Source: Lysinibacillus pakistanensis
GTDB taxonomy: Bacteria > Bacillota > Bacilli > Bacillales_A > Planococcaceae
NCBI GenBank assembly: GCA_001312325.1
Contig: BBDJ01000001.1
Location: 1 to 64,000 of the forward strand
Direction of reading: 5' to 3'
Length of the DNA stretch: 64,000 bases
Shown here: positions 53,384-63,438 of the stretch, piece by piece
Position numbering within the stretch: the first letter of the stretch is position 1
How the letters are laid out: each line of letters opens with the position of its first letter
Position numbers and translations under genes: made by a program
The notes under the pieces: model-generated
What the model saw: the letters and a program-made list of their open reading frames with translations, nothing else
The model's database searches: none
What the model was told of the DNA's origin: nothing

Positions 53384-54585
<1,202 letters not shown>

Positions 54586-56714: not shown

Positions 56715-58453
56715 CTATGTAGCTGCAACGGCAACCCAATGATTTGGAGATACTTCAACAAGCTGACTATTTTCAATCTCATAGCTTGGTTGTGTTTCTT
56801 CATTTTCAGTGTCCACATATTTTTGCTTTTCGATTGCTGGGTCAGGAATTGGGATGGAGCGCAATAAAGCTTGTGTATAAGGATGTCGAGGATTTGCATA
56901 GAGCTCTTCACTTTCTGCAAGCTCGACAATTTTACCACCATACATGACCGCTACACGATCACTAATATGCTTCACCATAGACAAATCATGGGCAATAAAT
57001 AAGTATGTTAAGCCCAGTCGCTGCTGTAAATCCTTTAACAAATCAACAATTTGCTTTTGTATAGAAACATCCAGAGCTGATAGTGGTTCATCACAAACGA
57101 TAAAGTTAGGCTCCACTGCTAGAGCTCTTGCAATGCCAATACGTTGTCGTTGTCCACCTGAAAATTCATGTGGATAACGCATTGCATGTTCTTTGTTTAA
57201 GCCTACAAGCTCAAGTAATTCCTCGACACGATGTTGTCGTTCTGCATTTGTTTTGACCAGCTTATGAATATCTAATGCCTCCCCAATAATATCAACGACT
57301 TTTTTTTCGGGGGTTTAACGAGGAATATGGATCTTGGAATATAATTTGCATATGACGACGCATTGCCTTTAGCTGTTTCTTCGTTAACCTTGTAATGGGT
57401 ATTCCTTGATATAAGACTTCTCCATATGTAGGCTGATGGAGCTGTAAAATCGTTCGTCCTGTCGTAGATTTGCCTGAGCCTGACTCGCCCACTAATCCCA
57501 ATGTTTCTCCAGTATATATGAAATGATAAATCATTAACTGCCTTTACTGTTTGACCACGACCTAATTCAAATTCCTTTGAAAGATGTGTAACTTCAATTA
57601 ATGGTTTATGTTGATTGCTACTAGTTTGCCAATTTACATGCGGTTTTGGCTGCTTTTTCTCATGGAGTTTTGGTAGAGCATTCAATAGCTTTTTTTGTAT
57701 ATGGATGTTGAGCATTAGAAAAAAATTTCCTCTGTTGTTCCCTGCTCAACAATCTCCCCCTCTTTCATGACAATCAGTCGATCACACATACCAGCCACAA
57801 CGCCTAAATCATGTGTTATCAAAATAATCGAGGTACCCATTTTCTTTTGCATATTGCGCATTAATTTTAAAATTTGCGCTTGAATCGTTACATCAAGTGC
57901 AGTTGTCGGTTCATCTGCTATGAGTAAAGACGGATTACAGCTAATGCCATAGCAATCATGACACGTTGCCTCATCCCTCCCGAAAATTCATGTGGATATT
58001 GCTTATAGCGTTCTTCAGGCTCCCTTATACCTACAAGCTTTAATAGCTCAATTGTTTGTCTATAGGCCTCAGCTTTGAACATTGACTGATGCTTGATTAA
58101 ACTTTCAGCTACTTGTTCCCCAATTCGAATAGTTGGATTTGTGGATGACATAGGATCTTGAAATATCATACTAATATCTTGTCCGCGGATTGCTTCCATT
58201 TGCTTTTCACTTAAAGTGGTTATTTCTTGTCCTTTAAATAAAATACTGCCTGACTTCAAAAATGAAGGGGGGTTGGTAATAAACGCATGATTGAACGAGC
58301 CGTAACACTTTTTCCACTACCTGACTCTCCTACTATTCCGAGCGTTTCACCTTTATTTAGATGAAAGCTAACATCCTTAACTGCTTCAAATTCTGTCTCC
58401 CCTGTCAGAAAGGACACACGAAGATTGTTGATTTCTAGAAGCTTTTCACTCAT
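56715..58453 (-). CDS. Fused double ATP-binding protein of an oligopeptide ABC transporter (DppD-DppF type)
   Basis: About 580 aa containing two ABC ATPases in one chain. Half 1: Walker [10 protein letters not shown] (~residue 40), signature [16 protein letters not shown], Walker [13 protein letters not shown]. Half 2: [38 protein letters not shown]. The junction ([18 protein letters not shown] to [17 protein letters not shown]) is in one frame, so this is a true fusion, as in GsiA/YejF proteins. Each half ends with the oligopeptide-type HPYT motif. ATG 58453 follows GGGTGGATGGA. At least four breaks (near 58257, 57945, 57720, 57530 and 57300). Divergent from the permease genes. Confidence 0.87.
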
Positions 58454-58677
58454 TCCATCCACCCTTTTTAAATTTTGTGATTGACTTAAGTACAAGTATA
58501 ATCCATACTTTACAATACTGATAGGAATTATACAGTATTGTACAAAACATGTCATCCCGTAATTAGTCAGCAGATCAATTCAATTCTAATAACGAGTCAG
58601 CAAGATATTGCATAAACTGATCAGTAATGAAGACTTAATTGCTTTAACCTTACTTAACTTACGTTTGGAGGAAATGC
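58454..58677. promoter_or_regulatory. Divergent promoter region of the oligopeptide transporter
   Basis: About 220 bp between the ATPase gene (minus) and the permease operon (plus). It must hold two promoters. GTATTGTACAAAAC and TACAGTATTGTACA-like blocks repeat near 58530-58548. GGAGG at ~58666-58670 serves the permease start. No confident operator. Confidence 0.4.
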
Positions 58678-60111
58678 ATGGATATATCAAATAATCATTC
58701 AGCAACTACGGAACATGTATTCTTTTTTTACGGTTTTTCAAAAGCTCAAAACTCAAAAACTCTACAATGTATTGCTCTTTCTTTTAAGTATTTTGGTGCA
58801 TCCAATTACATACTATTTCTATCGAAAAGGAAAACAATCACAACATTACAAACATGCTTTTGAACAACGGTGGCTGTACTACGAGGGAAAAGGTTTGTTA
58901 GCAAAATGGCAATCAGCATTTGCAGAGCAAGAATTAGCAAAGGCTACCTTTTTTTCACGAAACTGTATCTGAAAAGGAAATACAGGAAACAGCTTCTAGA
59001 TTGGCTCAAGCAAAAATTCAGCAATTTATTGAGCAGGATTTATTAAAGGAAGGCATAAAGGATCTCTCCTATTTAGAGTATTTTAGTGAGCAACTAAAAA
59101 AATAGAAAATTTCTGACTTTAACGTTTTTACCTGCTGCTTTATTTTATGTAGTACTGCTTTTATTTGCGAATCCATTTCTACAATTCATCATTGAGCGAA
59201 TACTACAAAGCTTCATTGTTATTGTAGGAGTGGCTACACTAGTTTTTACAATTTTGTATTTGTCTCCTTTTGATCCTGCAAGAAATCTATTAGGGGTCGA
59301 GGCAACGGCTGAGCAAATTGCCAATTTCAATCGCATTCACGGCTTAGATCAACCCTATTTCTCTCAGTTGTGGAATGCCTTATCTGGCCTATTCACCTTC
59401 GATTTAGGTACATCCTTTGCAGGGAAAGAAGACATTACTCATAGTATTGCAAATAAATTTCCTATCACACTTGAAATTGCCGTCCTATCATTATTAATGG
59501 CTATTGCTATAGCTATTCCAGTTGGCATTATTTCAGCGGTACGTCCAAATTCCTATTTGGATTATACATTTATGTTCATCGCTTTAATCGGACTATCCAT
59601 ACCGAGCTTCTGGCAGGGATTAATCTTTATTTTAACGTTCGCGTTAAAGCTTCAGTGGTTACCAGCTACATATAATCCCCAAAATTGGTTATCTCTCATT
59701 ATGCCAGTAATTGTTTTGGGTACATCTATTACTGCTTCAATTGCCCGTATGACCAGATCCAGCATGCTTGAGGTTATACATGAGGATTACATTATTACAG
59801 CAAGGGCTAAAGGTTTAAATGAATTTAAAGTCATTTCAAAGCATGCGATTCGTAATGCCATGATTCCTATTATTACAGTGATCGGGCTTCTCTTTGGCGG
59901 CATGTTGGGAGGGGCATCTGTTACAGAAAAGGTTTTTAATATTAGTGGTATTGGTAGCTATATCGTTGACAAACAGTTTATCCCCGATATCCCAGTGATT
60001 CTAGGTGGGGTCGTATACATTGCTATTACAATTTCGATTGTTAACCTTTTTATCGATATTTTGTACGCATTTTTCGATCCACGCATCCCCTCAAAAATGA
60101 AGAAGTCTTAA
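58678..60111 (+). CDS. Oligopeptide ABC permease 1 (DppB-like) with N-terminal extension
   Basis: About 477 aa against ~310 for usual DppB. The canonical part begins near residue 171 (FIIERILQSFIVIVGVATLVF) and includes LSPFDPARNLLGVEAT, DLGTSFAGKED and the EAA loop ARAKGLNEFKVISKHAIRNA. The extension has a TM helix (LYNVLLFLLSILVHPITYYFY), a ~95-residue charged helical region (KHAFEQRWLYYEGKG, EKEIQETASRLAQAKIQQF) and a second TM (FLTLTFLPAALFYVVLLLF). Three breaks (T-run ~58727, T-run ~58950, A-run ~59100) are corrected; all give one continuous frame. GGAGGAAATGC precedes ATG 58678. Confidence 0.8.
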
Positions 60112-60124
60112 AGGGGGAGCATCT

Positions 60125-61620
60125 TTGAAAAACATCTTACATGTCAAACTACTTTTGAAGATTACACAGGAATATGCCAATGCTCATTTTACATTTGTCT
60201 TTTCCTTCCTGTTCTCTTTATTGTTTCTAGCTTATAGCTATGATTTCTCTAGCCAAAGCTTGCGCCAATTGTGTGTGCCATTTTTATAATTTATGCGATT
60301 ACCACCGCTTATGTCGGTTTTCTTACTGTTCGAATCAAACAGAATTTAGCAAAGCTAGGAGATATCCCAAAAAGTACTCGTCTTCTTGGATATCCATTAT
60401 TTTTAACAGTAGCTACGGGCAATATTTTCTCAGCGTCATTTGCATTTATGCTTGTGTCTAAGAAAAAGACAGCTGAATATACCTTTGCTGCGTATGCATT
60501 TATTACACAACTATTCATCATAGGTATTTCAGCACTAAACCTGTTTAAGCCGTATGTGACAGATACCTTTTTACTAGCAATGGGGCTTTTCCTATGCCTT
60601 GCACTCTTTTATATTGTAATGCTAATTTTATGTACCAAATTTGTTACACAAAAATATGCTCCAAAATGGATGCTGTTACCTGGTATATTGCTATTATTTG
60701 CGACTTTTACTGGCAATCTTTTTGCCACATTACTAGGTTATTGCCTTATTCAAAAGGCACGAAAGACAAATCCATCATCGATAGAAAAATGGCAAAACAT
60801 TTGGGAAAAGATTTTGCGTAATACAATGGCTGTTTTCGGGTTATTTTTCATAGTTTTAATGTTTTCATTATCTGTCACAAGCTCGTGGACATTCGACTAT
60901 GATTTGGCTACCGAAAATAACTACGGAGCTTTGTTACAAACACCGTCACTGGAATACCCACTAGGCACAGATAATTATGGTAGAGATTTATTTTCTCGTA
61001 TTATTTTCGGTGCACAAATATCGTTGATTGTTGGCTTTTTCTCAACCATTATTCCAGCACTTATTGGAGGAGTGCTTGGAGCGTTTTCAGGCTTTTATGG
61101 CAAAGCCACAGACAACATCATCATGCGTAGCCTTGATATTTTATATGCGATTCCTGGTATTTTACTAGCTATTGCAATAATTGCTGCGTTTGGAGCCAAT
61201 ACGGTTAATTTAATCATTGCTCTTAGTGTTGGAGCTATTCCTACATACGCTCGTACGATGCGGGCGAATGTTATGCAATTCGCTAATTTTGAATTTGTAG
61301 AATCAGCTAGAGCATTAGGTGCTTCTGATGCTGCAATCATCTTTAAGCATATCGTCCCTAATTCATTAGCACCAATGATTGTTAAAGCAACGCTAACAAT
61401 TGGTGGAGCTGTTATTTCAACAAGTAGTCTAAGCTTTTTAGGGCTTGGCATTGAACCACATATTCCTGAATGGGGCAATATTTTAAAGGTTGGTAGTACG
61501 TACCTGGAAACACATTCCTATGTTGCGATTTTCCCAGGTCTTTGTATTATGCTGCTCGTTCTCTCCTTTAATTTCTTAGGGGATGGATTACGGGATGCTT
61601 TAGATCCAAAAACAAATTAA
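60125..61620 (+). CDS. Oligopeptide ABC permease 2 (DppC-like) with multi-helix N-terminal extension
   Basis: About 498 aa against ~290-300 usually. The canonical DppC part starts near residue 228 (WEKILRNTMAVFGLFFIVLM), with EYPLGTDNYGRDLFSRIIFGAQISL and the EAA loop ESARALGASDAAIIFKHIVPNS. The first ~225 residues form about six extra helices (FTFVFSFLFSLLFLAYSY, AIFIIYAITTAYVGFLTV, YPLFLTVATGNIFSASFAFM and others) that I do not recognise. Start TTG 60125 after GGGGGAG. One frame break at ~60283 (T-run). Confidence 0.8.
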
Positions 61621-61635
61621 GATGGAGGTTCTTAC

Positions 61636-63438
61636 ATGAAGAGATTACTTATATTGTTATTCATAGCAGTATTAGCACTATCCGGCTGTGTTCAAACAAA
61701 AAAAGGACGTAGAAGGCAATAAAGATTCAAAAGGTAAAGGCAGTACTTCAATTGAACTTTTAGGCATGTCCGCTTCTGAAGAGGATATGAATATTGTGCG
61801 AGATCAATTAGTGAAAAATGGCTTTGATGTAAAACTCAACATTCAGCCTGATTATGGTTCATTTTCTGCCCAAAAAGAGGCGGGCAATTACGATTTAGCA
61901 CTTTCTAGCTGGACAACAGTTACAGGAAATCCTGATTATGCTGTACGTGGTTTATTTAAAACGGGTGGCGATTACAGTGTTGTTGCTGACTCGAAATTAG
62001 ATGCTTTAATTGATGAAGCAAGTACATTAACAGGTGATGAAGCTGCAGCAAAATATAAAGAATTAGAACAGCTATTAGTTTTCGATCAGGCCTATATTGC
62101 GCCTTTATATATTTCCAATAAGTATCAAGGAATTTATTCAGAATTAGTAAATCCAAAAACTGTTCTTTTGCCGAAATCACGTGCACAGGTTTGGGAAAGC
62201 ATTGCATTTAATGATGCATCTAAAAATGCCAAAGAACCGTTGATTTTACACCAAACACTAGATTCTTTAACATCACTTGATCCAATTAAAGGTAATGATG
62301 GCTCCATTAATACATTGAATACTAATATGTATGCTCGACTTGTTAACTTAACGGATACAGATGAAGTCGTGTCAGATGGTTCACTATCTTATAACCATGC
62401 AATTGCTGAAGGTAACCAAGAATATTACTTCATTTTACGTGATGATATTCACTTTGCAGCTGTTAAGGATGGTGCTGCCGTTGATACAGGTGAATTGGTG
62501 TCTGGGGAAGATGTTGTATTCTCATTAAATCGTGCAAAAGATTCAACATCAGTACCAGATCACCGTACTTATAGTATCCATGAAAATATTGAATCTGTAG
62601 AAATCGTTTCAGACTTAGCTGAATTACAAAATAAAAAAAGTGGCAGGATCAGATCAATCTATTTTAGATGTCCTTTCTCAAAACCTGCCTGCTTCTGTAA
62701 CAAAATTAGCAAAAGATAAAGGTGCTGTTAAAAATGCAGCAGGTAGTTATCAGGTTGTAAAAGTTACAACACCGACACCATTCCCACAGGTGCTCAATTA
62801 TTTAGCTCACCAATCTGGCGGTATTGTATCTGAGAAACAAGTAACAAGTATCAATACTTATGATGTAGCTAGCTATGATCCAGACAAGGATATCGCATAT
62901 GGTGATCAAGCAACAGTAACAGAGGGTACAGCAACATATAACAATCATTTATATGCAAGCGGACCTTACATTCTTGTGAAGAAAAATGATTATGAAGCAC
63001 AATTTGTGAAAAATCCTGCATACCGTGTTGGTAGTGAATATGAACCAAAAATTGCGAAAATCAATGTTCGCTTCATCGCGGATAATGATAGTGCCCTATC
63101 TGCATTACGTAATGGGGAAATCCATATACTCCAGACAGTACCAGAAACAAAACTGGATATAGTAAAGTCTGATAATAAATTAACTTTAAATACCGCTGAT
63201 AGTAACGCTGTAGCATATTTACAAATGAATACATCAGGACGTGCCGTATCAGATTCAGTGGACTTACGAAAAGCGATACTTTACTCGATCAACCAGGATG
63301 AATTTATAAGCTACTATCAAGGCAATAAAAAAACCCGCTGTATCCACTGTTTCAACTTTAGTTAACACTGGATTAGAGCTTAAGGCTGACAGCGGAAAAG
63401 TAAAAGAATTTTTAAAAGCATATAAAGATGCAAAGTAG
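61636..63438 (+). CDS. Oligopeptide-binding lipoprotein with apparent circular permutation
   Basis: About 600 aa SBP_bac_5-type receptor. Lipoprotein signal FIAVLALSGCVQ (Cys ~17). Segments that normally end the family come first: residues ~35-190 contain SASEEDMNIVRDQLVKNGFD, YDLALSSWTTVTGNPDY, KYKELEQLLVFDQAYIAPLY. Then from ~199 the normal opening follows: LDSLTSLDPIKG, YYFILRDDIHF, GEDVVFSLNRAKD, and then the middle (LYASGPYILVKKNDYEAQFV, ALRNGEIHILQTVPE, VDLRKAILYSINQDEFI), ending KVKEFLKAYKDAK. The total length is normal. Three single-base breaks (~61705, ~62633, ~63333) corrected. GGAGG precedes ATG 61636. Confidence 0.85.

Follow-up and report, generated by a model that had tools for sequence, protein, structure and literature searches.

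A circularly permuted SBP_bac_5 lipoprotein, most likely the receptor of its own ATP-binding cassette importer, in Lysinibacillus pakistanensis and related bacteria

The cluster C substrate-binding proteins (SBPs), which include OppA, DppA, GsiB, HbpA/GbpA and SapA, are bilobed receptors in which, according to the structural descriptions in PMC8519434 and PMC10924461, lobe 2 comprises residues 313-531 of SapA and 287-539 of YejA, with both chain ends in lobe 1. The N and C ends lie close together in oligopeptide-binding proteins other than YejA, as described in a passage of PMC10924461. In the ligand site of DppA, an aspartate (D436) holds the ligand amino group and an arginine (R383) binds the carboxylate, as set out in the relevant part of PMC12136057. 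A natural circular permutant has been described in another cluster: TpMglB-2 (Tp0684) of Treponema pallidum, a glucose-binding protein of cluster B, is classed as 'Type Ic / Cluster Bc' and has homologues in treponemes and Gram-positive bacteria, in the account of passages of PMC4990184. We analyzed a stretch of 64,000 nucleotides from Lysinibacillus pakistanensis (contig BBDJ01000001.1, positions 1 to 64,000; hereafter the window), in which a gene at 61636-63438 encodes an SBP_bac_5 lipoprotein whose C-terminal part precedes its N-terminal part. This protein is very probably a natural circular permutant of cluster C, most likely serving as the receptor of its own ATP-binding cassette (ABC) importer and anchored to the membrane through lobe 2.

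The permuted SBP is homologous to the cluster C proteins in both of its modules and shares with them the predicted fold of residues 188-599, the lipobox, adjoining Dpp-type permeases and an aspartate of the D436 type. It differs from them in its permuted order, in chain ends that would lie in lobe 2, in a module 2 longer by about 70 residues (383 positions vs 311 in the ordinary profile) and in the absence of an R383-type site. The gene and its parts are listed below, with residues numbered as in P0097, an intact protein of 599 amino acids (aa):

61636..63438, + strand: gene of the circularly permuted SBP_bac_5 lipoprotein, with 3 frame breaks (placed by tblastn of P0097 and by the positions of A runs)
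61636..61741, + strand: signal peptide, lipobox cysteine (residue 18) and disordered linker, residues 1-35 (from the invariance of C18 and the predicted local distance difference test, pLDDT)
61742..62197, + strand: module 1, residues 36-187, corresponding to the C-terminal part of an ordinary SBP_bac_5 protein (hhalign and PDB profile matches)
62198..62233, + strand: linker bridging the two ancestral chain ends (C to N), about residues 188-199 (structure matches begin at model residues 188-201)
62234..63438, + strand: module 2, residues 200-599, corresponding to the N-terminal part of an ordinary SBP_bac_5 protein and ending at the ancestral mid-chain helix (hhalign; VIA-align to OppA)

In intact members of the family the C-terminal ~150 residues of SBP_bac_5 stand directly after the lipobox and the N-terminal ~400 follow, which is not the ordinary N-to-C order of the cluster C fold. 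Within the window, Pfam SBP_bac_5 profile positions 279-366 match residues 12-95 of the open reading frame (ORF) 61688-62719, and positions 67-235 match within the ORF 62640-63365; the PF00496 match of the permuted SBP exceeds the curated cut-off (137.7 bits vs 32.4) and falls in two stretches. Profile-profile comparison by hhalign with eight ordinary paralogues from G001, the nearest genome compared, aligned module 1 to positions 400-527 of 549 (probability 97.4) and module 2 to positions 70-380 of 549 (probability 99.8), each segment of the ordinary profile being matched once with good probability. An earlier note, made from the window sequence, had described a C-terminal portion directly after the lipid anchor followed by the N-terminal portion, and a rearrangement rather than a fusion or duplication; both descriptions are borne out, the first also by the rotation scan and PDB profile matches given below. 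Its statement that the total length is normal does not hold, as 599 aa exceeds most of the eight ordinary paralogues (532-560 aa in six, 605 and 626 aa in the other two).

A modular chimera, in which the C-terminal part of a different SBP_bac_5 gene was set in front, would give the same order. The best PDB matches of the two modules partly differ (5u4o and 6npo for module 1; 5isu, 3m8u and 1uqw for module 2), the paralogue rankings differ between the modules, and the authors of TpMglB-2 raised a similar possibility for their own protein in a passage of PMC4990184. Against this, neither module is matched strongly, rankings at such distance are unreliable, and the two modules jointly span the ordinary profile (70-380, 400-527) without overlap, as a clean cut would. 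We therefore regard a chimeric origin as unlikely and a circular permutation as the better account of the order.

Rotation of the mature chain to a start near residue 185 improved its fit to the ordinary-paralogue profile: the best single domain scored 130.9 bits, up from 99.9, and the whole sequence 131.6, up from 117.6. The scores formed a broad maximum for start points between 165 and 205, and the highest of 20 shuffles reached 1.8. Leave-one-out controls placed 7/8 ordinary proteins at their top score in, or within 1.3 bits of, their native order, and the remaining one (L009) was flat at 49 bits and uninformative. Comparison with the PDB matched 65 sequences, and for the 60 with a best stretch available, family positions up to ~180 fall on the later part of the chain and those from ~430 on the earlier part. 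The chain of 3tpa, for example, is matched in swapped order (family profile 221-341 to chain 21-141, 440-572 to 182-312, and 55-177 to 371-494); 3o6p, a 229-residue chain matched at 92-227, is an exception in form. Among these 60, no best stretch covers the whole family profile, and therefore no solved structure of a family member was seen. An ordinary paralogue in a further genome (G253) likewise shows the pieces reversed, with profile positions 474-582 followed within 70 bases by 36-177.

The cut point can be placed by comparison with L001, an ordinary paralogue. In L001 the helix YDPEKAKALLAEAGY continues into the strand EIELWAMP; the permuted SBP ends in KADSGKVKEFLKAYKDAK, and its strand STSIELLG comes after the lipobox linker. 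The protein thus ends where the moved portion normally begins, as the earlier note had it, with KVKEFLKAYKDAK as the last segment, STSIELLGMSASEED as the first after the anchor, and the equivalent continuous in L001. Structure matches stop at model residue 599, which corresponds to residue 342 of DppA (1dpp) or residue 355 of OppA (1b52). We propose that a short linker came to join the ancestral chain ends, which lie next to each other on lobe 1, and that the chain was opened midway through lobe 2, between the helix ending in KVKEFLKAYKDAK and the strand beginning STSIELLG, with the signal peptide and lipobox now at the new N end. As the ancestral ends lie close together, a linker of ~12 residues would be enough to join them. 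Judged from the lobe boundaries of other cluster C proteins, the new chain ends probably lie in the middle of lobe 2, and the lipid anchor would have moved there from lobe 1; the suggestion that the anchor attaches at a different point is thus kept in that the attachment is shifted, and amended in that the anchor would change lobes, not merely position.

An AlphaFold model built from 54 sequences agrees with this layout (mean pLDDT 89.1, predicted template modelling score (pTM) 0.85). Residues 1-34 have pLDDT <50, C18 is invariant in 28/28 rows of the family alignment, and every ten-residue block from 41 to 190 has pLDDT of at least 81 in the full model. Model residues 188-599 match residues 1-355 of OppA (1b52, VIA-align). 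The top Foldseek match is GsiB/YliB (1uqw) of Escherichia coli, a protein of ordinary order on which the family profile pieces fall in swapped order. The 50 structural rows shown comprise peptide-, opine-, nickel-, sialic-acid-binding and similar proteins, which we take to be cluster C proteins, aligned over model residues ~188-599; none of these 50 rows covers module 1. A cluster C fold for module 1 is predicted from the full model together with the sequence.

Both the order and its conservation bear on the possibility of an assembly or sequencing rearrangement in the window gene, with a true protein of ordinary order. The window copy is indeed disturbed: tblastn of P0097 placed it as four pieces in three frames (P0097 residues 1-23, 22-334, 333-565 and 564-599), all 100% identical to P0097, and the adjoining permease and ATPase genes are also frame-disturbed. 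(With default scoring, the second piece overran the breaks, and identity was then 97.2%.) Residues 1 to 599 run from 61636 to 63435, and a stop codon comes next, in agreement with the gene limits first proposed. The breaks coincide with A7 runs at 61698, 62633 and 63327, which are the only A or T runs of at least 6 within the gene. We take the breaks as read errors; true decay of the window copy is possible. Elsewhere in the window, at 53722-54539, another binding-protein-like lipoprotein gene is split over two overlapping frames, which fits frame errors there as well.

Intact copies carry the permuted order. G001 encodes a 599-aa copy with 4 residue differences from P0097, in one open frame. 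A contig scan found 325 genomic places encoding a relative, the best 80 of which have 62-90% identity and are labelled Lysinibacillus, Ureibacillus, Solibacillus, Sporosarcina, Psychrobacillus, Cytobacillus, Paenibacillus and others; all 80/80 fetched named loci gave one colinear match of at least 541 residues in one open frame. In sampled genomes, a near-full-length profile match was present in 62/151 of the taxonomic family (three of the 62 with one internal stop), 17/200 of the class and 2/199 of the phylum, tallies that may be lower bounds since 6 to 8 first-look candidates were scored per genome. The earlier note had named a corrected sequence and homologues of the same order as checks, and P0097, G001, the 80 loci and the 62 genomes all answer with the permuted order. 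An assembly artefact is refuted by these independent copies and has a negligible chance of being correct; an ordinary order hidden by the frame breaks is likewise rejected.

In four genomes in which all candidates were scored, the family member reached 611-1016 bits and the next paralogue at most 67.6. Protein searches (the best 120 of 1431 and the best 120 of 1365 matches, totals that are not counts of permuted proteins) added distant members under the names given by their sources, Brachyspira aalborgi (P0220), Roseburia hominis (P0263), Tissierella (P0267) and Proteiniborus (P0237), all of which align colinearly with P0097. Outside Bacilli, genomes of the classes of G003 (0/1), G012 (0/10) and G014 (0/22) gave no match, which shows little as no member is known there. 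Two entries are oddly labelled. L050, under Arthrobacter beigongshangensis, is a Bacillales-like locus with 67% identity and the same four genes, and is mislabelled, contaminated or transferred; P0050, which lacks an internal stretch and is assigned to the oomycete Phytophthora kernoviae, is most likely bacterial contamination.

Several observations weigh against the interpretation as a permuted cluster C receptor. The internal stops in 3/62 family genome copies are among them. When ordinary proteins were doubled and compared with the family profile, considering the three best domains per protein, one joined match was obtained in 1/8 (L001, profile 67-285); the other seven gave separate or weak matches, with almost none for L007 and L009. 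As a control, this carries less weight than the rotation scan. A model of module 1 by itself was of low quality (pLDDT 63.2, pTM 0.30). In the ligand site, the R383-type arginine has no counterpart: by eye, the PRPY loop of L001, presumably the loop holding R383, faces a shorter loop without arginine, and dipeptide binding is therefore doubtful.

The permuted SBP stands in a four-gene unit. In G001, where the unit is intact, a divergent fused ATPase is followed by a DppB-like permease (476 aa), a DppC-like permease (498 aa) and the SBP. In the window the other three genes are:

56718..58555, - strand: fused double ABC ATPase, divergently transcribed, with several frame breaks (tblastn pieces; motifs of the intact copy)
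58678..60111, + strand: DppB-like permease with an N-terminal extension of ~180 aa, its frame disturbed inside (tblastn of the intact G001 copy; Pfam N-domain from residue 167)
60125..61620, + strand: DppC-like permease with a hydrophobic N-terminal extension of ~205 aa and one frame break (tblastn of the intact G001 copy; OppC_N from residue 223; hydropathy)

The intact G001 ATPase has 613 aa with two Walker A and two signature motifs. The window DppB-like permease is 76.5% identical to the intact copy over its full length by tblastn, which we read as an out-of-frame stretch. The N-terminal extensions of both permeases have no Pfam match above cut-off, and that of the DppC-like permease is strongly hydrophobic. 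In E. coli GsiABCD, GsiA also carries a double ATPase in one chain, and we know of no permease extensions in that system. One passage of PMC5485302 does not state the double ATPase.

The unit is conserved together with the receptor. The ATPase, DppB core, DppC core and DppC extension are each present in 79/80 loci, the miss being L078, which lies close to the end of a contig. A DppB extension can be recognised in 77/80; L061 and L087, where it cannot, nevertheless have long DppB frames (526 and 481 aa). Clustering over the 80 loci grouped the SBP in 80, the ATPase in 79 and the permeases in 78 each, with the next gene family in 12. Shorter DppC frames occur in L036, L040, L088 and L089, together with a short ATPase frame in L036 and a split DppB frame in L089. 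Among the 151 family genomes the DppC extension is present in 62/62 SBP-positive genomes and in one more, G465, consistent with the link to extended permeases suggested earlier. In G465, by eye, the extended permeases and fused ATPase stand with no SBP after them (L115 3873-8337), and the ATPase has altered Walker A and signature motifs; this locus is probably a decaying copy. The distant G228 (SBP 40% identity) retains the same four genes with a shorter DppC extension, and its DppB extension is unrecognised by sequence, with ~159 residues preceding the core.

The permuted SBP most likely acts as a Venus-flytrap receptor for the extended DppB-like and DppC-like permeases with the fused double ATPase, binding a small peptide-like ligand and tethered via lobe 2 rather than lobe 1. 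Beyond this, it is a tentative idea, short of our favoured view, that receptor, extended permeases and fused ATPase evolved together as one type of importer: the opposite lobe would hold the receptor to the membrane, the extra membrane segments of the permeases would be adapted to that geometry, and the receptor would have spread through Bacillota and Brachyspira. Such importers would form a class of their own among peptide-type ABC importers, not described so far. Searches of open-licence papers showed no permuted SBP_bac_5 or cluster C protein among the papers listed. Within the reach of these searches, the earlier claim of no described natural example stands for cluster C, and it falls for binding proteins overall, where the passages on TpMglB-2, of cluster B, describe one (PMC4990184). 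TpMglB-2 is analogous as a naturally permuted, bilobed, tethered lipoprotein whose permutation is relative to its own cluster; it differs, as described there, in belonging to a sugar-binding cluster and in a reordering of the N-lobe, whereas the permuted SBP is probably cut in lobe 2. Homology to cluster B was not seen by Pfam, where PF00496 and a sub-threshold lipobox model were the two matches up to E 10. TpMglB-2 is the one other described natural permutant that we found among binding proteins, and the permuted SBP forms a large family under generic names, an instance of how a change in chain order can hide behind a plain Pfam match. The family offers a natural test of whether the lobe carrying the lipid anchor of a tethered receptor matters, and bears on how a permuted receptor docks to its permease and on whether the permease extensions arose together with the permutation.

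Another reading is that the protein has left transport and now serves as a sensor or regulatory lipoprotein next to the transporter. The changed ligand-site loop and the unusual permease extensions would fit it. In 79/80 loci, however, the SBP gene follows both permease genes on the same strand (the other locus is near a contig end), and TGNPDY, the motif that includes the ligand-contact aspartate, hardly varies; we consider a sensor improbable and a transport receptor the likely role. The D436-type aspartate is kept as D100 in 28/28 rows, where it lines up with the second Asp of the L001 sequence GDAD. Among NCBIfam profiles, SapA, NikA, GsiB and Opp-type models come nearest, each match falling far short of its cut-off, and the GsiB equivalog (NF011942) scored 45.4 bits vs a cut-off of 594. 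The ligand is likely small and peptide-like. In one locus, that of G228, a gamma-glutamyltranspeptidase gene (PF01019) lies directly downstream of the permuted SBP (L111 9534-11543), a possible clue to the ligand, for which glutathione or gamma-glutamyl peptides would be our guess.
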